A stretch of 57,627 nucleotides of DNA from Armatimonadota bacterium (GTDB lineage: Bacteria; Armatimonadota; DTGP01; JAKQQT01): assembly GCA_036504095.1 (NCBI GenBank), contig DASXVS010000068.1, positions 1 through 57,627 on the forward strand, written 5' to 3'. Both the position numbers and the translations under genes were made by a program. Under the pieces are notes generated by a model. That model made no database searches, had not been told where the DNA came from, and was given only the letters and a program-made list of their open reading frames with translations. Of this stretch, positions 10,925 through 44,361 are shown one piece after another (the first letter of the stretch is position 1; each line of letters opens with the position of its first letter).

Positions 10925-12256
10925 ATGTTCCTTTTCGGCGGTCAGAAGGTCCTGCCCAACGGGCATCTTGAAATCGGCGGCTGCGATGCGGTGGCGCTCG
11001 CGGCGGAGTTCGGCACTCCCCTGTATGTGCTGGACGAAGACGCCGTTCGCGGCCAGATGCGAGATTACGTACGGTCCTTCAACGAGCTCTATCCCACGAC
11101 CGTGGCCTATGCCGGCAAGGCGTTCCTCACCACCGCGATGGCGCGAATCGTTGAGCAGGAAGGCCTGAACCTGGATGTCGCCAGCGGCGGGGAACTCTAC
11201 ACGGCGCTGAAGGCCGGTTTCCCGGCGGAGCGCCTGGTTTTCCACGGGAACAACAAATCCGACGCGGAACTGGCGATGGGCCTGGACGCGAACGTCGGGT
11301 GCTTTGTGCTGGACAATTTCCACGAACTGGAACGGCTGGCGGACCTCGCGGCCCAGCGCGGCGCCGTGGCGCGCGTGATGATCCGCTGTACCCCCGGCAT
11401 CGATCCGCATACGCACCGCCTCATCCGCACGGGCCAGGAAGACACGAAATTCGGGTTGAGCGTGAAGGACGGCGCGGCCCTCGAAGCGGCCAGACGCATC
11501 TGTGGCGCGCCTTCGCTGACCCTTGAAGGGTTTCACTGCCACCTGGGTTCCAACCTGATGGATGCTTCCTCGCATGTAGAGGCGCTGGACGTGATGGCGC
11601 GCTTTGTCGCCGAGACGCAGCGCGAACTCGGCGTTGAAGTAGGCCGGCTGGACCTGGGGGGCGGCCTGGGCGTCCGCTATCTACCGGAACACGCGCCGAT
11701 CTCCGTGAAGGAGTTTGCCGCGAAGGTCGTCGGAGCGCTGGTCGAATCGCTCGATCGCTATGGCGCCGGACGGCCGCATCTCGAACTGGAGCCCGGGCGC
11801 AGCATCGTCGCGGAGGCGGGGACAACGCTCTACACCGTTGGCGCGGTTAAGGAAGTCAGCATCCCGGAAGCGCCCGGCAAGCGCATCTACGTTGACATCG
11901 ACGGCGGCATGAGCGATAACCCGCGGCCGCAGTTGTATGAAGCGCGGTACCACGCCTTTCTCGCGGACGCCGCCGGGTCGCCTGCCGATACCACGGTGAC
12001 GATTGCCGGGAAGCATTGCGAGACGGACATCCTGATCTGGAACGTTGTGATGCCCAGGCCGAAACCGGGCGATCTGCTTGCCGTGCAAACGACCGGCGCG
12101 TACAACTATGCGATGGCGAGCAACTACAACCGACTCACGCGGCCCGCGGTGGTACTGGTGAAAGATGGAAGGGCCGACGTCATCGTTCGACGGGAGTCGC
12201 TGGACGACCTGGTACGGAACGACTTGATTCCCGACCGGCTGAAGTCGGCGTCCTAG
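10925..12256 (+). CDS. lysA: Diaminopimelate decarboxylase
   Basis: 443 residues, normal length. Decarboxylates meso-diaminopimelate to L-lysine using PLP in the cytoplasm. Visible landmarks are VAYAGKAFL with the PLP lysine at 65, NLDVASGGELYTAL, the HCHLGS block, DLGGGLGV, ELEPGRSIVAEAGTTLYTVG and the active-site cysteine in GKHCETDIL. The ATG at 10925 has GGAG 12 bases upstream. It is the first gene after a recognisable promoter and is followed 55 bases later by the nucleotidyltransferase gene, so it probably heads the long operon that runs to 20579. Confidence 0.95.
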   Translation: MFLFGGQKVLPNGHLEIGGCDAVALAAEFGTPLYVLDEDAVRGQMRDYVRSFNELYPTTVAYAGKAFLTTAMARIVEQEGLNLDVASGGELYTALKAGFPAERLVFHGNNKSDAELAMGLDANVGCFVLDNFHELERLADLAAQRGAVARVMIRCTPGIDPHTHRLIRTGQEDTKFGLSVKDGAALEAARRICGAPSLTLEGFHCHLGSNLMDASSHVEALDVMARFVAETQRELGVEVGRLDLGGGLGVRYLPEHAPISVKEFAAKVVGALVESLDRYGAGRPHLELEPGRSIVAEAGTTLYTVGAVKEVSIPEAPGKRIYVDIDGGMSDNPRPQLYEARYHAFLADAAGSPADTTVTIAGKHCETDILIWNVVMPRPKPGDLLAVQTTGAYNYAMASNYNRLTRPAVVLVKDGRADVIVRRESLDDLVRNDLIPDRLKSAS

Positions 12257-26705: not shown

Positions 26706-27734
26706 CTAAGCGTCCGTGCCCTGAATGTGGCACTGGCGGCAGAGGTTCTTCGCCTGAGTACCGTCGTCGCCTTCTTCAGTGACGACTCCCGTCCCCTTCA
26801 TGTAGATGAGGCCGAAAGCGTTCTGGTTGCCGTGGGATTTGTGGCAGGAGAAGCAGGACGGGGTGAAATCCGTCTGTCCCGCGTCCCAATTCCCCGTCGG
26901 ATTCATAACCTTGACTCTGTTGGTGTGGCCCGTGAACTGCGTGAGGCTTGAGAAGTAGGCCGCGCCCGGCGTTCCGATTTTGATGCCGGCCGTTGGGTGC
27001 CTGAACCAGTTCTTCGCGGTGCCTTCGTTCGCCGCGCCGTGGAAGACGGTGTGGCAGCCCTGGCACCATTCGCCGAAGGCTGATTTGGTGGTGTCCGGTT
27101 CGTTGAAGTCAACGTTGTTCACGGAGTAGTGGATACCGACCTGCCCAAGCGTGGCGTCGCGCTCGAAGATGGGCAGCGTGGTGTCATTGGTGCCGATGGC
27201 ATACGCCAGGGCAATGTCCGTCGGCGCCGTGCCAGGCTTACTCTGCAGGTTGCGGTACTGCTTGTTCGTGTATCCGGCGGGGTAGGTTGCGTGGCTCTGG
27301 CCGTGCTGGACGTGGCAATTGAGGCACTCCAGGCCAGTCGTGCCCGTGTTGAACGTTCCACCAGGGGCAACCACGTTCGGTACCCCCAGGGTATGGCCTT
27401 TCCAGTCCTCGTAGGGCGCCACGCCCGTTGTCAGGGCGCCGGCCTCGCGAACGTTGGTGCCGGTGTTCAAGCCGATCACGTCCGGGGCGAAGGTCTGACC
27501 ATCGTGGCACTGCAGGCACATCGTGTTTGCGTCGGCCTTCAGCAAGCCCACATACGGCCCACCGGTGAGAGGTGTAGTTGGTCCACCGGTGTAGGTGTGT
27601 GAGATGCTGTAGTGCATCGTGTGACAGTCAGAACAGATCAGTGATGAATCTGTATGGTAGTCTCCGGCCATCAATGTGCCGGCGCTGAGCGCCAGCACAA
27701 GTGCCGCGCCCAGGAGTTTCAGGTGTTTAGACAT
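26706..27734 (-). CDS. Periplasmic hexaheme c-type cytochrome
   Basis: 342 residues with signal peptide (LKLLGAALVLALSAGTLMA). Six CXXCH motifs: CSDCH, CLQCH, CLNCH, CQGCH, CFSCH and CRQCH, i.e. six covalent hemes. The start of the mature protein, GDYHTDSSLICSDCHTMH, matches that of the hexaheme at 36275-37297 (GEYHGPLQNTCSDCHTAH), so the two are paralogues of the doubled-CXXCH family. GGAGATG precedes the ATG. It is the last gene of the left arm and is separated by ~400 bases from the NHL gene upstream, so it may have its own promoter. Confidence 0.9.
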   Translation of the reverse strand: MSKHLKLLGAALVLALSAGTLMAGDYHTDSSLICSDCHTMHYSISHTYTGGPTTPLTGGPYVGLLKADANTMCLQCHDGQTFAPDVIGLNTGTNVREAGALTTGVAPYEDWKGHTLGVPNVVAPGGTFNTGTTGLECLNCHVQHGQSHATYPAGYTNKQYRNLQSKPGTAPTDIALAYAIGTNDTTLPIFERDATLGQVGIHYSVNNVDFNEPDTTKSAFGEWCQGCHTVFHGAANEGTAKNWFRHPTAGIKIGTPGAAYFSSLTQFTGHTNRVKVMNPTGNWDAGQTDFTPSCFSCHKSHGNQNAFGLIYMKGTGVVTEEGDDGTQAKNLCRQCHIQGTDA

Positions 27735-29209: not shown

Positions 29210-30652
29210 TTAGCTCGCGACCCCCGTGTGGCAGAGGATACACAGGTCCCTGGATTTGTCGGCTATGGTCATGGCTTCAAACTTGGAGCCGTGAATATCG
29301 TGGCACGATGAGCAAGTCATCGGGTCGCCGTTTATCGGGTTGAGAACGATGGTACCGTCGGCCTTCTTGCCGATCGGGTGCGAGAACGAGTGCTTATGGC
29401 ACTTTCCGCACATGGATATCTCATCATCGACCAGCAGCTTCGGCTGCGGCGAACTGTGCGGCTTGTGGCACATCATGCAATCCAGATCGGTATCCAGCAC
29501 CTTGTGCCGATGCTCCGCTACCGTGTCTGTCTCGATCTTGCTATGACACGTGAAGCACGTGTACGCCGGACGAGCCTTCATCAGAGCCTTCTGGTTGGAC
29601 ACATGGGGGTCGTGACACGTCGTACAGAGCCCTTCCTTGGCCGGAACATGAGCGTGCTCACCGGCCGGAGTGATAACCGATGCGGGGTGGCAGGTCATGC
29701 AAAGCTCATTCGCGGGCTTGACGAGTCCGATTGGCTGTCCCGTTACGGGCTTGGTGTGGCAGATTTCGCACTTCCCCTGCTTGAAAGGCATGTGCGCTTT
29801 GGTCTTGACCAGGCTGGCCTTCTGGTTGTGCGAGTGCGGATCGTGGCACTGGGCGCATTTGGATTCGGCAATCGGATAGCCCTGATGAGCGGTGAGGATC
29901 GCCGGGGTCTTCGGATCGTGGCACTGGATGCATTTCTGCTGGACGTCCGGGATGACCATGTTGTGGTCCGGGGTTCCGTGCGGGTCGTGGCAGGTCAGGC
30001 ACTGCCCCTTGGCCACCGGCGAATGGGTATAGGCGGCGGTTTTGCCCGGTGAGCTTTCCAGGACCTTGGCGTGGCAGCCCAGACAAAGTTGCGGCGCCGG
30101 CTTGATCAGCTGCTTGTCATTCCCGTTCGGATGCCCGGTGTGACACGAGACGCACGCCAGGTTCTTTCTTCCGTGCTGGCTGCCGGCGAAATACCGGCCG
30201 GGGATATTCTGCCATTCCGCGGGAGCTTTCGACGCTTCGTTCTTGAAGTGGCACGTCCCGCAAACCGCGTTGGCGGCCTTGGGGTCATCCGCATTGATGA
30301 CGCGGAGTTTCCTGGTTCCGGGCGAAGCGACGTGAGCGCCGGCGGGACCGTGACACGCCTCACAGGCGTTCAATTCCGCCGGCAGGCCATCCTTCGTCAG
30401 AGACTTGCCGTGGGCGGATTTGGACCAGGCATCGACGGCGGCCGCATGGCAGTTCTTGCACGCCCCGCTGCCGACGTAAGCCGGCGCCGCGGGTGCGGGA
30501 GGCGTGGGGGGCTTGGCCACCGCCGGAGCGCCGGCGCCGCGGGGCGCCGCCTGAGCCCTGATAGGCGTCACGGACGCCAGGAATAGCCCAACGCCGAGAA
30601 TCGCACTTCGGACCGCCCGAGATGTCTTACCTGATGTCGTCATGATAATCAT
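29210..30652 (-). CDS. 16-heme c-type cytochrome
   Basis: 480 residues, secreted (signal block AILGVGLFLASVTPIRA), with an Ala/Pro-rich linker before the first heme. I count 16 CXXCH motifs: CKNCH, CEACH, CGTCH, CVSCH, CLGCH, CLTCH, CIQCH, CAQCH, CEICH, CMTCH, CTTCH, CFTCH, CMMCH, CGKCH, CSSCH and CILCH. That is one heme per ~28 residues of mature protein, with many CHDPH and free His-Xaa spacings as in nanowire-like doubled-CXXCH proteins. ATG at 30652 and ATG at 30643 are both possible starts. The leader carries Rex-box-like and other inverted repeats. Likely a periplasmic or surface electron wire. Confidence 0.9.
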   Translation of the reverse strand: MIIMTTSGKTSRAVRSAILGVGLFLASVTPIRAQAAPRGAGAPAVAKPPTPPAPAAPAYVGSGACKNCHAAAVDAWSKSAHGKSLTKDGLPAELNACEACHGPAGAHVASPGTRKLRVINADDPKAANAVCGTCHFKNEASKAPAEWQNIPGRYFAGSQHGRKNLACVSCHTGHPNGNDKQLIKPAPQLCLGCHAKVLESSPGKTAAYTHSPVAKGQCLTCHDPHGTPDHNMVIPDVQQKCIQCHDPKTPAILTAHQGYPIAESKCAQCHDPHSHNQKASLVKTKAHMPFKQGKCEICHTKPVTGQPIGLVKPANELCMTCHPASVITPAGEHAHVPAKEGLCTTCHDPHVSNQKALMKARPAYTCFTCHSKIETDTVAEHRHKVLDTDLDCMMCHKPHSSPQPKLLVDDEISMCGKCHKHSFSHPIGKKADGTIVLNPINGDPMTCSSCHDIHGSKFEAMTIADKSRDLCILCHTGVAS

Positions 30653-30686: not shown

Positions 30687-30704
30687 TTGTGCGCGTGCGC
30701 ACAG
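30687..30704. promoter_or_regulatory. Rex-box-like site upstream of the 16-heme gene
   Basis: TTGTG-CGCGTGCG-CACAG at 30687-30704 differs in one end base from TTGTG-N8-CACAA, the outer consensus of Rex operators. Its core TGTGCGC-GT-GCGCACA is a perfect dyad. It lies 35 bases before the ATG at 30652. Binding by the Rex-like protein encoded next door is inference. Confidence 0.45.
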
Positions 30705-30728: not shown

Positions 30729-30773
30729 CCGTGTGAGGCGCCTCGGTTGATATTGTGCACAGACCTCACACGG
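30729..30773. promoter_or_regulatory. Inverted repeat CCGTGTGAGG...CCTCACACGG
   Basis: Perfect ten-base arms at 30729-30738 and 30764-30773 frame a 25-base centre containing ATTGTGCACAGAC. The last sequence echoes the ATTGTG...CACAGAC of the site at 30687. It may be a second operator or a leader stem of the 16-heme gene. Confidence 0.4.
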
Positions 30774-30924: not shown

Positions 30925-31335
30925 TTATTTCGGCGGGATCATATGGATATTCGTCTTCTGATGGCAGGCGGCGCAGGTGCTGCCTGACGGCACGCGCTGA
31001 ATCTTCGTTTTGTCACCCATATGGGCGGCGCCGGGGCCGTGGCAGCTTTCACACGTTGTGCCCTTCAGCAACGGAGTGGTCGCCTCGTCTATAAAACCGC
31101 CCTTGCCGTAACCGGTGGAATGGCACGGCAAGCACTCCGCGCTCTTCTCTTTTCCGACGTTGACCAGGAGGTCGAAGCTTTCCGCGTGGCGAGATTTAGC
31201 CCAGTCGTTGTAAATGTCGGGGTGGCACATTTTGCAGTTGTCTACGCCGGCGTACTTGCTGGTGCTCTGCGCGCCAATGACGACGCCATTCGCGGATACC
31301 AGAAATAGAACGAACCCACACAGCAGTTTCTTCAC
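30925..31335 (-). CDS. Tetraheme cytochrome c554-like protein
   Basis: 136 residues from the GTG at 31335 (AAAGGAACC upstream); this start gives a clean signal peptide (KKLLCGFVLFLVSANGVVIG). Four CXXCH motifs: CKMCH, CLPCH, CESCH and CAACH, with the c554-family spacing YNDWAKSRHAESF, then CHSTGYGKGGF and CESCHGPGAAHMGDK. The same domain forms the C-terminus of the fusion protein at 4420-5847. Small cytochromes of this type shuttle electrons in the periplasm. It lies between the 16-heme gene and the Rex-like gene on the same strand. Confidence 0.9.
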   Translation of the reverse strand: MKKLLCGFVLFLVSANGVVIGAQSTSKYAGVDNCKMCHPDIYNDWAKSRHAESFDLLVNVGKEKSAECLPCHSTGYGKGGFIDEATTPLLKGTTCESCHGPGAAHMGDKTKIQRVPSGSTCAACHQKTNIHMIPPK

Positions 31336-31503
31336 AAGCGGTTCCTTTCCCGGGCAGGAGAGAGTCTTTCCACACCTTGCGGGACAGCCGGTCCGCGAAG
31401 GCTCAAAACACCCGGCCACCTAACTCTTAATGGTCGGCCGGGCTGGCAATTCCGGTCGCTCGTTGAAATGGCGCATTCCGGCTCAAGATTGCGCATAAAC
31501 GGG

Positions 31504-32493
31504 TTATGAACTCTGCCGAAGTTCAACGTGTCTTCTCAAGTGATGCCTGCGGATAGGCGCAGAGACCACGGTGTCGTCACTTCTGACCTTCATAGCGAGC
31601 GCCATCATCTCGCCGATCATGTCAACCTGTCGCACATTCACGTGGGGTGGCGGCGTCAACGTCACCGAGGTGAGGTTCAAAATACCTTTCACGCCGGCCT
31701 CGATCAGAAAATCCGCGATGCCCCTGGCGTTTTCCGGAATCGCCAGCACAACTCCGTCGATGCTTCCTTCGCCTAACAGCGTCTTCAGATCACTTAACGG
31801 ACGAATATCCCAATCGCCGATCTTCTTTCCGATCCATTCAGGTCTGGGATCGAACGCTGCCACCACGCGGAAATTCAGATCCAGGGTGGAGTCGAACATC
31901 GCATACACATTGGTCAGCCATTCGGCCCCAATCCAAGCAACCAGACAGGTGTGCTGGTCAAAAAGTTTGTGAATTCTCTCCCGCAGAAACGCAACGTTGT
32001 AGCCGATCCCCGGCCTACCGGTTTCTCCGAAGCAGGAAAGGTCCTTCCGCACCATCGCGGCGCCAACTCCCACCTGATCCCCCAGTTCGCGCGAAGAGAT
32101 TATCTCTATCCCCTGGTCGGAGAATGAATCCAACGTCGCAGCATACCAGCGAAGGCGCATCAGTGTCTTGAGCGGAACGCTGGGACGATCGTGGCACGGT
32201 GTCCCCTTGTCTTCGAGATAGCGGGCGATCCGCCAGATCCAATGTGACTTATCTTCCGATCCACTGCGCAACGGGCATATGTTATGGAGATTCACCCGAA
32301 GAGAGCAAACGATGGTGGTACAGACGCTGCAATCCTGAATACCCCTGGCGCTCGCGCAGGCGTAGATCTGGCACGGGGTGCGACCCCACTGCTCCAAGTA
32401 AAGATTGCCCCGATCGCATCCCGGGCAAGTAGCCTGCCGGCGATACTTGCAGTTGCTGCAATCGAACAAGCCACATCGTGAACGCTCTTCCAA
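31504..32493 (-). CDS. Rex-like regulator with N-terminal cysteine-rich DUF3795-like domain
   Basis: 329 residues. Residues 1-75 hold 11 cysteines in a DUF3795-like order (CGLFDCSNC, CPGC, PCQIYACASARGIQDCSVC), suited to bind Fe-S or zinc. Residues ~105-170 are a Rex winged helix: IEIISSRELGDQVGV, then VRKDLSCFGETGRPGIGYNV (148-167). Residues ~180-310 follow the Rex Rossmann domain (VVAAFDPRPEWIGKKIGD), but the glycine loop GxGxxG is IGAEWLTN at 188-195, so NADH binding is doubtful. I start at the TTG at 32493 (GAGG eight bases upstream) because a TATAAT promoter lies just above it. The frame stays open to 32949 but there overlaps a divergent gene. Predicted redox-responsive repressor of the surrounding cytochrome genes. 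Confidence 0.75.
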   Translation of the reverse strand: MEERSRCGLFDCSNCKYRRQATCPGCDRGNLYLEQWGRTPCQIYACASARGIQDCSVCTTIVCSLRVNLHNICPLRSGSEDKSHWIWRIARYLEDKGTPCHDRPSVPLKTLMRLRWYAATLDSFSDQGIEIISSRELGDQVGVGAAMVRKDLSCFGETGRPGIGYNVAFLRERIHKLFDQHTCLVAWIGAEWLTNVYAMFDSTLDLNFRVVAAFDPRPEWIGKKIGDWDIRPLSDLKTLLGEGSIDGVVLAIPENARGIADFLIEAGVKGILNLTSVTLTPPPHVNVRQVDMIGEMMALAMKVRSDDTVVSAPIRRHHLRRHVELRQSS

Positions 32494-32553: not shown

Positions 32554-32582
32554 ATTATACCCTATTTCACAAAGTCCAGCAA
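32554..32582 (-). promoter_or_regulatory. Promoter of the Rex-like gene with overlapping Rex-box-like operator
   Basis: Minus strand: TTGCTG (32582-32577), 17 bases, TATAAT (32559-32554). Across spacer and -10 lies TTGTG-AAATAGGG-TATAA (32572-32555), with the 5+8+5 spacing of a Rex operator, a perfect left half (TTGTGAAA) and a right half two transitions from CACAA. It looks like an autoregulatory site. The rest of the 331-base gap (32494-32824) also has TACAAT at 32690-32695 on the plus strand, a possible -10 for the right arm. Confidence 0.6.
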
Positions 32583-36222: not shown

Positions 36223-36274
36223 CTCATCCGGGTGTCACCGGGTGTCGTCATCGAATCTAAGCAGGATCAATATC

Positions 36275-37297
36275 GTGTTGCGACGGAATAACAGCCTCTC
36301 CCTGATCACGTTGGCGGTACTGGCAGCTTGCCTGCTGGCCACGGGCGCCGTCCGGGCTGGCGAGTATCACGGGCCGCTGCAGAATACGTGTTCCGACTGC
36401 CACACCGCCCATGCCAGCGTGCGCGGGCAAACGTGGACGCCCACACCGCATCTTCTCAAGAACTCCAATGGAGAGGTTTCGCTCTGCATGAGCTGCCACG
36501 ACGGAACCGACCCGCAGGCTCCCGATATTGTGGCTTCCGGCACCGCGAGCAACCCTACGGACACGGTGACCACGTTGTACACCAGCAAATTTGGGTCAAG
36601 CGCGGGGTTCTTCCAGAGCGACTACCTTACGGCCAGTTCCCCGTACGGTCACGACCTGGCGCCGGCGTTTTCGGTCAGCGCTCCGTTGTCCTCCGGCTAC
36701 ACGAAAAGCGGCGGGCTCACCTGTGCGGATTGTCACGACGTGCACGGAAACGACAATTACAGGAACCTGCTGCCCGACCCGAATCCCGCGCATCCGGGGT
36801 CATACAGCATCGTCATCGGCACGCAAGTGAAAGAGACGACGCCTGTAAACGCGCAAAACCCGAACCCCGCGGTGGCGTATGATACGGCGAACGTTTCGCT
36901 CTACGTGAACAACAACATCAATGCGTGGTGCACTGATTGTCACGACCTGCTTGCGGCCAACAGCGCCGGCAGCGCGCCCGCGCATTTCCGGGGCCATCCG
37001 ACCGACGTTCAGATCGGGGGCATCGGCAAGCATACGGACTCCGCCAACTGGATTTCACCCGGCAGCGGGCCGAACACGGGCTTCGGAAGCGATGTGAATG
37101 ACTCCATTCCCGGCATCCCGCGAGTACGGTACGGATCTCCCACAGGCAGCAACACCATCGCCGGTAGCACCGACACCGTCTCGTGCCTGAGCTGTCACAA
37201 GGCCCACGGCAGCAAGTACAAACAAGCCACGGTCTGGCCGCTTCAGCAGGCCGGAGCCGACATGATTTCAGGATGCCAGCAGTGCCATTTCAAATAG
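36275..37297 (+). CDS. Hexaheme c-type cytochrome
   Basis: 340 residues. I take the GTG at 36275 (AGGA eight bases upstream), since it puts the signal peptide (LITLAVLAACLLATGAVRA) at the N-terminus; the open frame before it belongs to no domain. Six CXXCH motifs: CSDCH, CMSCH, CADCH, CTDCH, CLSCH and CQQCH. It shares layout and N-terminal pattern with the hexaheme at 26706-27734. It starts 52 bases after the NHL gene and ends two bases before the decaheme gene. Confidence 0.9.
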   Translation: MLRRNNSLSLITLAVLAACLLATGAVRAGEYHGPLQNTCSDCHTAHASVRGQTWTPTPHLLKNSNGEVSLCMSCHDGTDPQAPDIVASGTASNPTDTVTTLYTSKFGSSAGFFQSDYLTASSPYGHDLAPAFSVSAPLSSGYTKSGGLTCADCHDVHGNDNYRNLLPDPNPAHPGSYSIVIGTQVKETTPVNAQNPNPAVAYDTANVSLYVNNNINAWCTDCHDLLAANSAGSAPAHFRGHPTDVQIGGIGKHTDSANWISPGSGPNTGFGSDVNDSIPGIPRVRYGSPTGSNTIAGSTDTVSCLSCHKAHGSKYKQATVWPLQQAGADMISGCQQCHFK

Positions 37298-37299
37298 GT

Positions 37300-38826
37300 A
37301 TGTCGAAAACCGCGACGAAATGGGCCCGGCTTGCCGGACGCGCCTGCCTGCTGCTGGCGGCGATCGCGCTGCCGGTCAGTTTGTTTGCAGACGGCGGATT
37401 CTACACCCAGACCAAGCACGGCAGCCCCACGCTCGGCGTTCAGAGAGATCTGGCGCAGCCACAGGGAGACTGCACGCAGTGCCACACGAGCCATGGGACG
37501 AACCCGCAGGATTTCGGGCTGTGGGTGGCGAATGACGACAATCTGTGCTTCACCTGCCATGCCACCGAGGCGGGAACCTATTCGGGGCAGACGGCATACT
37601 CGCAAAGCGGCCACTCCGTTTCAACGGTCACCTTCAATCAGCGCCCGGTCGGCCTGTGCGTGCAGTGCCACAACCCTCACGGGGCCGGCGACTCTCGCGG
37701 AATGTTCCCCAAATTGACCGCTCAACTGGAAGAGAAGAATTGCTACACGTGCCATGGATCGAGCCTGCGGCCGCAAGGAGCGCAGGACATCGAAACACCC
37801 TCCCGGCAGAGGTATGGCCACGCGGTGGCGAATTTCGAGCGCCTGCACAACGATGCCGCCGAGTTCGGCTCTATCGGCGGCCGGCCCAATCAGTTTCTCA
37901 GCGGAGCATCGCGTCACGTTGAATGTGCGGACTGTCACAACACGCATACCGGGAAGACCGCGCCCCGTTTGGCCCGCAGTTCCAACATCGGGGAATTGAT
38001 GCTGGGCACCTGGGGAGTGCGGCCGGTCTTTTCCGGAACCGCATGGATTGCGCCGTCGAGTTACGTCACGGAGAGGTTCCAGAGCACATCCACCGAACTT
38101 GAGTCCTACCTCTGCTTCAAATGCCATTCCGATTACGCGTGGGGCAACCAGGCGCCGTATACCGCGGATGGAATGCTCGAATCAAACAACGCGCTCGAGT
38201 TCAATCCAAACAACCCAGCGTACCACAATGTCACCGGCCAGCCGGAACTGAGTGTTCCGTCGGAGGACTTCGTTTTCGGCACCGCGAGCCCGCCTGCCTA
38301 TATCAACCAGTGGGGCCCCAACTCGGCCATGGCTTGCAGCGACTGCCACGCGGGCGATCCCAGTACCGGGGACGTTCAGGGTTCGCACGGATCGATGTTC
38401 AGCTTCCTGCTGAAGAAGCGCTTCAAGGCGCAGGCAGGGGCTATTGACAACACGGGCGCCACCGGCACGCAGTCGGACGCCTGTTTTGATTGCCACGATT
38501 GGAACACGTACGGACAGGGCGGCACAGGAACGGCAACGAATTTCCGCAAGGATACCGGCAATCTGCACAGCCTGGCGGGCCACGCCCAGGCGGGGTGTTT
38601 CCAGTGCCATTCCGCGGTCCCGCACGGATTCAAGCGCAAGCATATGATCGTCTACGTGACCGACGGGGCTCCCTATTACCAGTCAGATCCGATTAACTAC
38701 ACCCTTCAGAAGGGCGGCATCCAGGCGTACTCTCACCAGGATGGCGGCGCATACACAGTCAACAGCTGCAAGGCGGGCTGCCATGACGCCCACCAGACGG
38801 CAACGCCGGTAAACCCGTTACCCTGA
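37300..38826 (+). CDS. Decaheme c-type cytochrome (nine CXXCH, one CX3CH)
   Basis: 508 residues with signal peptide (RACLLLAAIALPVSLFA). Nine CXXCH sites: CTQCH, CFTCH, CVQCH, CYTCH, CADCH, CFKCH, CSDCH, CFDCH and CFQCH. A tenth site near the C-terminus is CKAGCH (codons at 38767-38784), a CX3CH variant. The ATG at 37300 stands two bases after the hexaheme stop; the frame is open further back only as a shadow. The beta-barrel gene follows 17 bases later, the order expected for the cytochrome that sits in an outer-membrane conduit. Exact position in the complex is inference. Confidence 0.9.
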   Translation: MSKTATKWARLAGRACLLLAAIALPVSLFADGGFYTQTKHGSPTLGVQRDLAQPQGDCTQCHTSHGTNPQDFGLWVANDDNLCFTCHATEAGTYSGQTAYSQSGHSVSTVTFNQRPVGLCVQCHNPHGAGDSRGMFPKLTAQLEEKNCYTCHGSSLRPQGAQDIETPSRQRYGHAVANFERLHNDAAEFGSIGGRPNQFLSGASRHVECADCHNTHTGKTAPRLARSSNIGELMLGTWGVRPVFSGTAWIAPSSYVTERFQSTSTELESYLCFKCHSDYAWGNQAPYTADGMLESNNALEFNPNNPAYHNVTGQPELSVPSEDFVFGTASPPAYINQWGPNSAMACSDCHAGDPSTGDVQGSHGSMFSFLLKKRFKAQAGAIDNTGATGTQSDACFDCHDWNTYGQGGTGTATNFRKDTGNLHSLAGHAQAGCFQCHSAVPHGFKRKHMIVYVTDGAPYYQSDPINYTLQKGGIQAYSHQDGGAYTVNSCKAGCHDAHQTATPVNPLP

Positions 38827-40543: not shown

Positions 40544-40561
40544 TTGTGCGTTCACGCACAA
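40544..40561. promoter_or_regulatory. Rex-box-like palindrome upstream of the lipoprotein-resB-ccsA group
   Basis: TTGTG-CGTTCACG-CACAA fits the outer Rex consensus exactly; with flanks it is TTTGTGCG-TTCA-CGCACAAA, an eight-base perfect stem. It begins three bases after the barrel stop, so it could instead be part of a transcript end, but no T run follows. A TTGACA (40578-40583) lies 17 bases downstream, with only a poor -10. Confidence 0.5.
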
Positions 40562-40740
40562 ACCCTAACAGGGATTGTTGACATACATCGCCCAAATGAA
40601 GGACAAATCAAAACGGGGCCGAATGTAAGCGTTCGGAAAACAGTTCGATAAGCGACGCGGCGTTCGTGAGGGGAGACTTCATGGCGCCGGCCCGGGTTGG
40701 TTCGATTGTCCGCAACAGGGCACTTCGAGAGTGGAATCAC

Positions 40741-41910
40741 ATGAAAATCAAAACTCCAGTCGGAATGATGCTTGCCGCATTAATCGTGACGATGCCCATC
40801 GTTTCAGGGTGCAATGATGGAGGACCGTCCACCAAGTTGTTTGTGAAGGCCCGGAATGGAAAGCGCCTCCGAGTGGCCGTCCTGCCGTTTGACAACGTCA
40901 GCAGGGATCAGGACGCGGGCCGAACCGTCACCAACACCATCGTCACCTACCTGCTGTCCACCGGCGACTACGACGTAGTGGAACCGGGCGTGGTCAGTTC
41001 GGCGATGAGCTCCGAAGGGATCCGCCTCGTCGACGGCATAACCTTGGAGTCGTGCCAGAAACTCCAGCCCAAACTCAACGCGGACGCGTTCATCATGGGG
41101 ATGGTCGAAGAGTATGGGGAGGTCCGGATCGGGGCCGACTCGTACCCATCCGTCTCGTTCAGCGCCCGGCTCATTGACCCGCGAAACGCCGACATCCTGT
41201 GGGCGGGAACGATCAGCAAGACGGGAGCCGATAACGTCAAGGTGTTCGACATCGGCCGCGTCTCGTCGATCGGAAAGCTCTCCAAGCGGGCAGTGGCGGC
41301 GTTTTCAGCCTCCCTGGCGAAGTCCAGAGCGGCTATTACGGCGGCGATGTCTTCGCCTCCCGTTGATGTGACACCGCCGACCGTCGCACCGACCCCGCCG
41401 GTGACAACGCCGGTTCCGGAGCCGGTTGCGCCGCCGGTTGTTGAGCCGACTCCCACCCCCACGCCGACGCCCACCCCGACGCCTACACCGGACGTGACGC
41501 CGCCGTCAAACGCGAAATATCGTGACGAGTCCGCAGCCTACAGCGAAAAAGCGCTTACGGCATTGCTGAAGGACATTGGCACGGCGAAACTCGGCAAAGT
41601 GAACTATTCGAAGCATTTCCACGGGACGATCGAAACGAAGTACGTCGTCGGGGACCGCGGGCAATCCGTGGATGTGAAGCTTGTTGACTACTTGAAAGTC
41701 GCGACCGCGGAGAAATTCGTCCAGGGATACAATCCGGGCGCGCAACAGACTACGTTTGAGACTCTGCCGGCGTTTACCGGCGAATCCGGTTTCGGCTACG
41801 TTCATCTGGACGTGGCGGTTGGCCGCTTCGGCATCTACCTCCGTGGCCCGAAAGACAGGAAGGCGGACGTGGACGCTGTCGGCAAGGGGATTATCGCACT
41901 GCTAAAATAG
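40741..41910 (+). CDS. CsgG-like lipoprotein with Thr-Pro repeat linker
   Basis: 389 residues from ATG at 40741; lipobox VSGC ends the signal. Residues ~30-200 resemble the CsgG/GNA1162-type domain (LRVAVLPFDNVSRDQDAGRT, YDVVEPGVVSSAMSSEGI, ADAFIMGMVEEYGEVRIG, SARLIDPRNADILWAGTIS). A Pro-rich linker with six or more Thr-Pro repeats leads to a C-terminal ~120-residue domain (YSEKALTALLKDIGTAKLGK). CsgG-type lipoproteins form or support outer-membrane secretion pores. In this operon it may help export or anchor a cytochrome; that is inference. Its start follows a Rex-box-like site. Confidence 0.7.
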   Translation: MKIKTPVGMMLAALIVTMPIVSGCNDGGPSTKLFVKARNGKRLRVAVLPFDNVSRDQDAGRTVTNTIVTYLLSTGDYDVVEPGVVSSAMSSEGIRLVDGITLESCQKLQPKLNADAFIMGMVEEYGEVRIGADSYPSVSFSARLIDPRNADILWAGTISKTGADNVKVFDIGRVSSIGKLSKRAVAAFSASLAKSRAAITAAMSSPPVDVTPPTVAPTPPVTTPVPEPVAPPVVEPTPTPTPTPTPTPTPDVTPPSNAKYRDESAAYSEKALTALLKDIGTAKLGKVNYSKHFHGTIETKYVVGDRGQSVDVKLVDYLKVATAEKFVQGYNPGAQQTTFETLPAFTGESGFGYVHLDVAVGRFGIYLRGPKDRKADVDAVGKGIIALLK

Positions 41911-41944
41911 CAGTGCACGCTTCGGGACGGGTGAGGTTTGACTA

Positions 41945-43363
41945 GTGATCAACGGAAACTACCAGGAAGATCCGCATCAGGCAGGGGCAGGGGCAGCGCA
42001 GCCGGTCGAAGAGAAAGAGATCGGCGCCCTGGAGGCATTGTGGGCGTTTTTCAGCTCGATGAAGACGGCCATCGTGCTTCTCCTACTTCTGGCTGCGACC
42101 TCGATCGCGGGCACGATCATCGAGGACAGAACAGGGAAAACCATCTATGGCAGCACCGGGTTTTCCATGCTGGTCCTGCTTATCGGCATCAACCTGGCCG
42201 TGTGCAGCATCAACCGGTTCGGGCTTGTCTGGCGGACCGGGTTCAGGCCGAGTGCGGCCGCATCGCCGGCGTTGGTTTCGATGATGTCAAGGTCGCAGAA
42301 GGTGACCTGCGCCGGCGCTGTAGATTCCGTTGCGGACAAGGTGATCCGTTCGCTTCGATCGATGCATTACCGTGTCGATACCGAGGCCTCCGACGGCGCC
42401 GTTTCAATCTATGCCGACAAGGGGCGCGCCAGCGTGTGGGGCCCGCACGTCACTCATCTGAGCCTGCTCATCATCTTCATCGGAGCGATTTTCGGAAACT
42501 ACTTCGGAAAAGAAGGATTCACGAACATCGTTGAAGGCCAGCGCGCCGCCGGGTACTACCCGAGGGACATGAAGAGCAAAGTGAAGACTCCGATGGGCTT
42601 CGAGGTAGGCCTGAACAGTTTCACAATCACTTACGACAAGAACCACAGCCCGGTTGGATACAAGAGCGACCTTCAGGTCTACGACGGCGGCAAGGCGACG
42701 ACCCGAAGAACCATCGACGTGAATCACCCGCTCACGTACAACGGTCTCTCGTTTTACCAGTCGGACTACGGACTGGTTGGGCTTGTGATGAAGGTGACCG
42801 CGCCGGATGGCCAGGTGCAGGAGATCGGGTACGACATCAGCACCGATGACACCAACCAGGGCAGGAAATACAGCGTGGCCGGCCAGCCGTTCAAGCAGTT
42901 TCCGCTGGCAGGGAAGAACCTTACCCTGTTCGTGCACAACCTTGTCCCGGACTACGTAGAAGGGATGGAAGGCGGCCGAAGCACGCTGCCATTGAACCCC
43001 GCGGTCAACGTGATGATCAACGACCGGTTTCCGCAGTATAAGGGGATGGATGCGTGGGGAAAGCTGGGCTGGTTGACGGTGTCGAAGTCGGCTGAGTACA
43101 AGGGCTATACAGTGACGCTGGACCGAGTGGTCAAATACACCGGCTTGCAGGTTTCCAGCAATCCCGCCCTGCCGGTGGTCTATCTCGGCTTCGTGCTTGC
43201 CGTGCTTGGCGTGCTGCTGTGCTTTTACGTGACGCATAAGTCCATCAGGGTAAGCATCACGGGGTCCGGCGAGGCAGTGAACGTGGTTGTTGGCGGAACG
43301 TCGAAACCCGATCCGGCGGTGATGGACAAGGACCTGAAACGCCTGTCTGACTCGCTGGCATGA
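41945..43363 (+). CDS. resB: Cytochrome c biogenesis protein ResB (CcsB)
   Basis: 472 residues from a GTG start with GAGG upstream. ResB is one half of the System II cytochrome c synthase that attaches heme to CXXCH outside the membrane. Features: ALWAFFSSMKTAIVLLLLLA (first helix), TSIAGTIIEDRTGKTIYG, HVTHLSLLIIFIGAIFGNYF, a large periplasmic part with INHPLTYNGLSFYQ-like block (here DVNHPLTYNGLSFYQSDYG), and a last helix PVVYLGFVLAVLGVLLCFY. Normal length. It is followed by ccsA, the usual partner. Confidence 0.9.
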   Translation: MINGNYQEDPHQAGAGAAQPVEEKEIGALEALWAFFSSMKTAIVLLLLLAATSIAGTIIEDRTGKTIYGSTGFSMLVLLIGINLAVCSINRFGLVWRTGFRPSAAASPALVSMMSRSQKVTCAGAVDSVADKVIRSLRSMHYRVDTEASDGAVSIYADKGRASVWGPHVTHLSLLIIFIGAIFGNYFGKEGFTNIVEGQRAAGYYPRDMKSKVKTPMGFEVGLNSFTITYDKNHSPVGYKSDLQVYDGGKATTRRTIDVNHPLTYNGLSFYQSDYGLVGLVMKVTAPDGQVQEIGYDISTDDTNQGRKYSVAGQPFKQFPLAGKNLTLFVHNLVPDYVEGMEGGRSTLPLNPAVNVMINDRFPQYKGMDAWGKLGWLTVSKSAEYKGYTVTLDRVVKYTGLQVSSNPALPVVYLGFVLAVLGVLLCFYVTHKSIRVSITGSGEAVNVVVGGTSKPDPAVMDKDLKRLSDSLA

Positions 43364-43488
43364 TTCGGCAGCCGGTACTCCGGCACTCCGAGCTAAAGGG
43401 GAGATTCGGGCGAACTGTGTGTTAGTCTGTATGAGATAATATCGGTTGAGCCATTTTCGCGGACAGCGGAAGTGGAGGATAGGGATAT

Positions 43489-44361
43489 ATGACAGAACAA
43501 CTGGGGCTGAGACTGTTTGAGACGGCATTCTGGATCTACCTAGCGGCGGCGGCGATATATATCGCCGGCATGTTCAAGAACCAGACGAATCTGGCGAAAC
43601 TGGGCCGGGGCTTTTTTCTGGCCGCGCTGCTTGTGCACACGGGTTCGCTCGTGGTCATCACCATCGCCATCGGCAGGCCGCCATTCCTGAACCTGTATGA
43701 GTACATGCTTTCGTTCACCTGGGCGGCGGCGGCGGTGTATGCGGCGATGGAAGCCCTCACCAAAAGCACGTCGTTCGGGGCGTTCTGTGTGCCTCTGATC
43801 GCGGCCTTCGCCCTTTTCACCCAGCTCTTGGGCAAAGAGATACACCAGGGGATCGACGAGAGCATCATGCCGGCCCTCCACAGCGCGTGGCGCGTCCCTC
43901 ACGTGGGGAGCGCGATCCTTGCGTACGGGGCGTTCCTGATAGCGTTCGTGCTGGCCATCATGTACCTGGTTCGAACCCAGATCGACCGAAACGCCGCTGC
44001 GCCGGGGGGGAAGCCCGCGCAGAAATCCTTCTGGGATGCCAGACTGCCGTCGGCCGCAGTGCTTGATCAGACGATCTACCGCACCATCGCTTTCGGATTC
44101 CTCATGCAGACCCTCCTGGTGATCATCGGCGCCGTGTGGGCCCAGGTGGCCTGGGGCAGATTCTGGGGCTGGGATCCGAAGGAAACGTGGTCGTTCATCA
44201 CATGGCTGATTTACGCCACATACCTTCACACGCGGACCGCCATGGGGTGGCGCGGCCAGAGGTCGGCGTGGTTGGCGATCATCGGGTTCGCCGCGACGGC
44301 GTTTACGCTGATCGGTGTGAGTTTCCTGCTTGGCGGGCTGCACAGCTACGCCGGGAAATAG
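43489..44361 (+). CDS. ccsA: Cytochrome c biogenesis protein CcsA (ResC)
   Basis: 290 residues with about eight membrane segments. The heme-handling tryptophan-rich motif WGRFWGWDPKETWSFITWL is diagnostic of the CcmC/CcmF/CcsA family; flanking histidines for heme transfer are visible (SAWRVPHVGSAILAY, THLHTR-like YLHTRTAMGW). With ResB it forms the System II synthase. GGAGG lies ten bases before the ATG. A 125-base gap after resB leaves room for its own promoter. Likely last gene of the right arm; a hairpin follows. Confidence 0.9.
   Translation: MTEQLGLRLFETAFWIYLAAAAIYIAGMFKNQTNLAKLGRGFFLAALLVHTGSLVVITIAIGRPPFLNLYEYMLSFTWAAAAVYAAMEALTKSTSFGAFCVPLIAAFALFTQLLGKEIHQGIDESIMPALHSAWRVPHVGSAILAYGAFLIAFVLAIMYLVRTQIDRNAAAPGGKPAQKSFWDARLPSAAVLDQTIYRTIAFGFLMQTLLVIIGAVWAQVAWGRFWGWDPKETWSFITWLIYATYLHTRTAMGWRGQRSAWLAIIGFAATAFTLIGVSFLLGGLHSYAGK

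Follow-up and report, generated by a model that had tools for sequence, protein, structure and literature searches.

A 57,627-nt contig of an Armatimonadota bacterium, referred to in its entirety as the window, carries a gene for a Rex-type protein with an additional cysteine-rich domain (Cys-Rex), and in front of this gene a sequence with the spacing of a Rex operator runs into the −10 box of a promoter. Rex is the textbook NADH/NAD+ sensor. The locus raises the question of whether the Cys-Rex protein acts on its own promoter and, if so, which signal it would read. The reading that appears likely is that Cys-Rex itself uses the 18-bp site as an operator, binding it as a self-limiting dimer, with cytochrome c genes as further targets and with the signal entering via the cysteine-rich domain.

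The site and its promoter

The predicted Rex-type operator, TTGTGAAATAGGGTATAA, lies on the minus strand at 32555–32572 and reads TTGTG-N8-TATAA from 32572 to 32555. Its left half-site is perfect for TTGTG and also for TTGTGAA of the longer consensus, and the right half-site, TATAA, agrees with CACAA at three of five positions, so that both mismatches to TTGTG-N8-CACAA fall in the right half. Together with the next T, this right half-site forms a perfect TATAAT, read as the −10 hexamer (32554–32559, minus strand), which occurs just twice in the whole window with both strands counted. The arrangement proposed in the preliminary description, i.e., Rex spacing, a perfect left half-site and a right half-site on the −10 box, is thus borne out by the minus-strand sequence. 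A candidate −35 hexamer, TTGCTG (32577–32582, minus strand), lies across a 17-nt spacer. A simple promoter scan of the window did not flag the promoter at 32554–32582, because TTGCTG has only three of the six consensus bases.

The composite is 79 nt away from the start codon of the Cys-Rex gene (31504–32493, minus strand; 329 aa), a TTG at 32493 with GAGG 8 nt upstream. The open frame extends a further 483 nt upstream of this TTG, and the promoter had been taken earlier as a sign that this extension is not translated. This is probably right, with better evidence coming from the homologues, which begin at the position corresponding to the TTG, and from the third-position G+C, which falls from 0.66 in the gene to 0.57–0.59 in the upstream open frame.

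A Rex-type dimer would bind 32572–32555 with one winged helix per half-site, and the bound dimer would lie over both spacer and TATAAT, keeping RNA polymerase off and thereby letting the Cys-Rex protein limit its own synthesis. Action of a Rex on its own promoter has precedents, since a study of Streptomyces avermitilis rex-hem describes autoregulation through a site between and over the −35 and −10 boxes (PMC5355995), and a Caldicellulosiruptor bescii study states rex autoregulation (PMC6391272). The arrangement predicted here from sequence resembles both systems, but differs in that its right half-site doubles as the −10 box and deviates from the consensus. Autoregulation as such would therefore be ordinary, and the unusual part would be the regulator.

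Rex-type dyads at the site and at other loci

The site could instead be a plain sigma-70 promoter (TTGCTG-N17-TATAAT) whose spacer happens to contain a Rex half-site and to which no regulator binds. The consensus alone proves nothing against this, because the window contains 20 sites with up to two mismatches to TTGTGN8CACAA vs. 15.5 expected from shuffles; without an excess, significance from the consensus count was rejected. In addition, GGTATAAT recurs as a conserved element of the promoter in front of four rex genes, all from one related genus in which the left half is not conserved, so the match may in part reflect promoter and not operator sequence.

However, a matrix gave a different picture. 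It was built from dyads that have at most one mismatch and lie no more than 300 nt upstream of a rex-type gene at another locus, with the window excluded, and its 11 training sites comprised four from Cys-Rex genes, one of them from the paralogue in the same genome, and seven from non-Cys rex genes. The stretch 32555–32572 ranks first of 57,610 window positions with all 11 sites and also with the seven non-Cys sites only, and second of 57,610 with the four Cys-Rex sites only. In a shuffled 150-nt promoter, its matrix score has P = 0.001–0.002.

Dyads of this kind are also found in front of many other rex genes. With at most one mismatch, they occur within 300 nt upstream of 4/15 other Cys-Rex genes and 7/30 non-Cys rex genes. 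A comparison with shuffles, in which the count differs slightly, gave dyads with at most one mismatch upstream of 4/16 Cys-Rex genes (0.05 expected) and 6/20 others (0.12 expected), rising at two mismatches to 9/16 (1.04 expected) and 8/20 (1.86 expected), respectively, while the reversed-pattern control gave 0 and 2. The six Cys-Rex genes of family f19 have no upstream dyad at up to two mismatches and no cytochrome neighbour.

The composite itself recurs in the window's genome (4.68 Mb, 98.6% complete). Within three mismatches, the 18-mer is found at one other place, TTGCGAAATCGGTTATAA on contig C26 (G000:C26:33022-33039), which also runs into a TATAAT and lies 81 nt upstream of a 6-heme cytochrome gene, as measured to its called start codon; the reversed 18-mer pattern, searched in the whole genome at the same tolerance, gave no match. 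This second site is about 5 kb from the genome's only other Rex-type gene, a paralogous Cys-Rex that is 57% identical and whose TATAAT is followed, ahead of the start codon, by TTGTGCATGACGGCACGA. By eye, the paralogous gene is flanked by two near-alike open frames resembling ArsR-type HTH pieces (L084:9407-9682 and 11023-11361).

The first matrix rank, the low P value, the recurrence at a cytochrome promoter and the dyads at other rex genes make the plain promoter an unlikely account of the site. Together, the recurrence of the composite, its top matrix rank and the dyads at other rex genes render autoregulation at 32555–32572 by a Rex-type protein a well-supported prediction.

CRP/FNR-type sites have the same core spacing as TGTG-N8-CACA, and this shared core geometry would allow the dyads to belong to a protein of that type. 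Such an assignment is very improbable, since no protein of the genome matched the model HTH_Crp_2 above its cut-off (two weak matches lie below it), in contrast to 14/14 control genomes with matches, and since the dyads cluster at rex genes.

The Cys-Rex protein and its NAD(H) pocket

The preliminary description had implied an ordinary, NADH-sensing Rex. The family matches of the window protein agree with the name: its best one is NF003995 (Rex), with 159.6 bits vs. a cut-off of 126, and 16/16 Cys-Rex proteins are matched by models bearing the name 'redox-sensing transcriptional repressor Rex'. The winged-helix DNA-binding domain PF06971 (32035–32178, minus strand) exceeds its curated cut-off (56.1 bits vs. 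27) and matches 16/16 members at E ≤ 0.01. The Rossmann/CoA_binding domain (31666–31932, minus strand) is likewise over its cut-off, but its NAD motif is degenerate, with GAEWLT in place of GxGxxG. In front of these lies a cysteine-rich DUF3795-like domain (32266–32493, minus strand), the DUF3795-like front part of the protein comprising about 100 residues; the DUF3795 profile (PF12675) gives 19.9 bits, under its gathering score of 22.6, and matches 9/16 members at E ≤ 0.01, and the cysteines of the domain are invariant.

A search with this front domain in 291 genomes of the phylum gave matches at 23 places in 20 genomes, of which 18 were read and five weak ones (E 0.001–0.009) were left out. 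Sixteen of the 18 are fusions to a Rex core, from 14 genomes, and the other two are stand-alone DUF3795-like proteins. Eight cysteines are invariant in 18/18 rows, a feature that Cys-Rex thus shares with the two stand-alone DUF3795 proteins of the phylum, although its own domain is fused to a Rex core and scores below the Pfam cut-off. A comparison of the cysteine-rich profile with solved structures revealed no relative (best E 0.36), and an AlphaFold model from the single sequence was uninformative (mean pLDDT 30).

The contacts of Thermotoga maritima Rex with DNA and NAD(H), as given in PMC8836258, separate the two functions of the protein. Among these, the DNA contacts Arg12, Arg48, Ser52, Gly58 and Tyr64 are kept in 16/16 fusions. 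In contrast, the NAD contacts Gly91, Asn92, Gly94, Ala96, Tyr100 and Lys120 were found in 0/16 among the residues listed, i.e., the six commonest letters per alignment column, so that the nicotinamide-stacking Tyr (Tyr100) is replaced throughout. Of the other contacts, Gly89 is kept in 16/16 fusions, Asp115 in 13/16, and Asp191 in 11/16 vs. 5/24 in the other Rex group. The motif GxGxxG is present in 0/16 fusions vs. 36/38 other Rex proteins read (23/24, 11/11 and two more; the exceptions are L033 and G045c), which gives 7e-12 in Fisher's test on rows that are related to one another.

Cys-Rex is like the Rex of T. maritima and Bacillus subtilis in its winged helix, base-contacting Arg, conserved Ser/Tyr and Rossmann-type second domain, and in a predicted operator of the TTGTG-N8-CACAA class. 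It is unlike the NADH/NAD+-sensing Rex proteins in having no GxGxxG, a replaced nicotinamide-stacking Tyr and an extra N-terminal cysteine-rich domain, and in its link to multiheme cytochromes. An ordinary NADH-responsive Rex whose altered loop still binds NAD(H) would fit the family matches and the retained Gly89 and mostly retained Asp115; it is nevertheless improbable, given the loss of GxGxxG, the complete change of further NAD contact positions, and the company that the fusions keep. Of the 13 other fusion-bearing genomes, ten were searched for PF06971, and 10/10 have a separate fusion-free Rex, with at least one such Rex carrying GxGxxG in each. The same search of the window's genome gave no Rex beyond the two Cys-Rex proteins.

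The Cys-Rex protein is therefore probably not an NADH sensor, as judged from these residues. With the DNA-reading residues kept and the NAD(H)-binding motif lost, the N-terminal cysteine-rich domain is the more likely reader of the signal and may use a metal centre, an iron–sulfur centre or thiols for this. Accordingly, the earlier proposal of a Rex-type operator on its own promoter stands in part: the top matrix score, the dyads at other rex genes and the second composite at a cytochrome promoter speak for it, whereas the ordinary NADH-sensing Rex that it implied finds no support, with the NAD(H)-binding motif gone from the window protein and 15 relatives. In the open-licence literature, no paper was found that treats DUF3795 together with Rex, and nothing fitting was found there on a Rex fused to a cysteine-rich or iron–sulfur domain, associated with multiheme cytochromes or unresponsive to NADH.

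Gain of the domain and loss of the motif are not strictly coupled, since two short Rex-like proteins, L033 (G030) and G045c (L103:1297-1956, G045:C161), have neither the Cys domain nor GxGxxG; these may represent a third type. In an unrooted tree from which G045c, G241c and G240c are absent, 36 non-Cys rows form one clade (100/100), and all 16 Cys-Rex rows lie outside together with L033, which groups with G012 on long branches, making its placement unsure. By eye, a separate GxGxxG Rex at L147 and L148 (G241 and G240) directly precedes a NuoE-type-looking subunit gene, a neighbour expected for a target of the hydrogenase or complex I type.

Cytochrome c genes as candidate targets

A perfect dyad, TTGTGCGTTCACGCACAA (40544–40561, plus strand), lies in the intergenic region before a candidate target operon for cytochrome c maturation (40738–44361, plus strand; GNA1162-like lipoprotein, ResB and CcsA-type genes), and its matrix rank is first or second. 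The genome has only two perfect TTGTGN8CACAA sites; the other one, on contig C40 (G000; L085:9468-9485), is upstream of a terminase-like gene and was not accepted as a regulatory site, being either a chance occurrence or unexplained. For the GC-rich pattern TTGTGCGN4CGCACAA, the genome-wide count at two mismatches showed no excess (14 vs. 18 in the control). At one mismatch there are three sites, two of them in the window, of which only the second is independent because the pattern was derived from the first.

A weaker dyad, TTGTGCGCGTGCGCACAG (30687–30704, plus strand), has one mismatch and lies 35 nt upstream of another candidate target, the 16-heme cytochrome gene (29210–30652, minus strand); its matrix rank of just 21–53 makes it a weak candidate. 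Upstream of the same gene, an inverted repeat, CCGTGTGAG ... CTCACACGG, was seen by eye at 30729–30773. The window further contains a 4-heme cytochrome gene adjoining the Cys-Rex gene (30925–31419, minus strand), a 6-heme cytochrome gene (26706–27734, minus strand) and two more multiheme cytochrome genes (36269–38826, plus strand). The other two cytochrome loci of the same genome, on contigs C41 and C71, have no dyad with at most one mismatch in front.

Since the same operator class is present at the 6-heme cytochrome promoter on C26 and before the ResB/CcsA operon, repression by Cys-Rex probably extends beyond its own gene to those for cytochrome c. In the wider family, a multiheme cytochrome neighbour, defined as a gene with at least four CxxCH motifs within 9 kb, was found for 5/16 fusions, across four genomes and three families. 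The corresponding counts for non-Cys rex genes are 0/20 from other genomes and 1/10 from the same genomes (G235), giving a one-sided Fisher value of 0.015 for 5/16 vs. 1/30, uncorrected for kinship and with some contigs short. In 18 kb of G045, one of the best three matrix matches is the Cys-Rex promoter, itself among the training sites; the remaining two are 33 nt from each other and lie upstream of a gene for a 10-heme cytochrome.

The broader proposal is that Cys-Rex represents a sensor-swapped branch of Rex, in which the nicotinamide pocket was abandoned and a cysteine-rich domain (metal, iron–sulfur or thiol) was fused to the front. The inherited Rex operator code would then report a redox signal other than the original one, and control would extend to the protein's own gene, multiheme cytochromes and the maturation of cytochrome c. 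The chances for and against this proposal appear evenly balanced. If true, it would mean that a repressor can change its input yet keep its DNA code, would caution against annotating every Rex match as an NADH sensor, and would offer a handle on the control of multiheme cytochrome clusters in this bacterial group.

A further Rex-type dyad was noted in G223 (L164:4809-4826, contig C85). It lies 110 nt upstream of a gene for glutamyl-tRNA reductase, after which comes one for an 11-heme cytochrome; this genome also has a canonical Rex.
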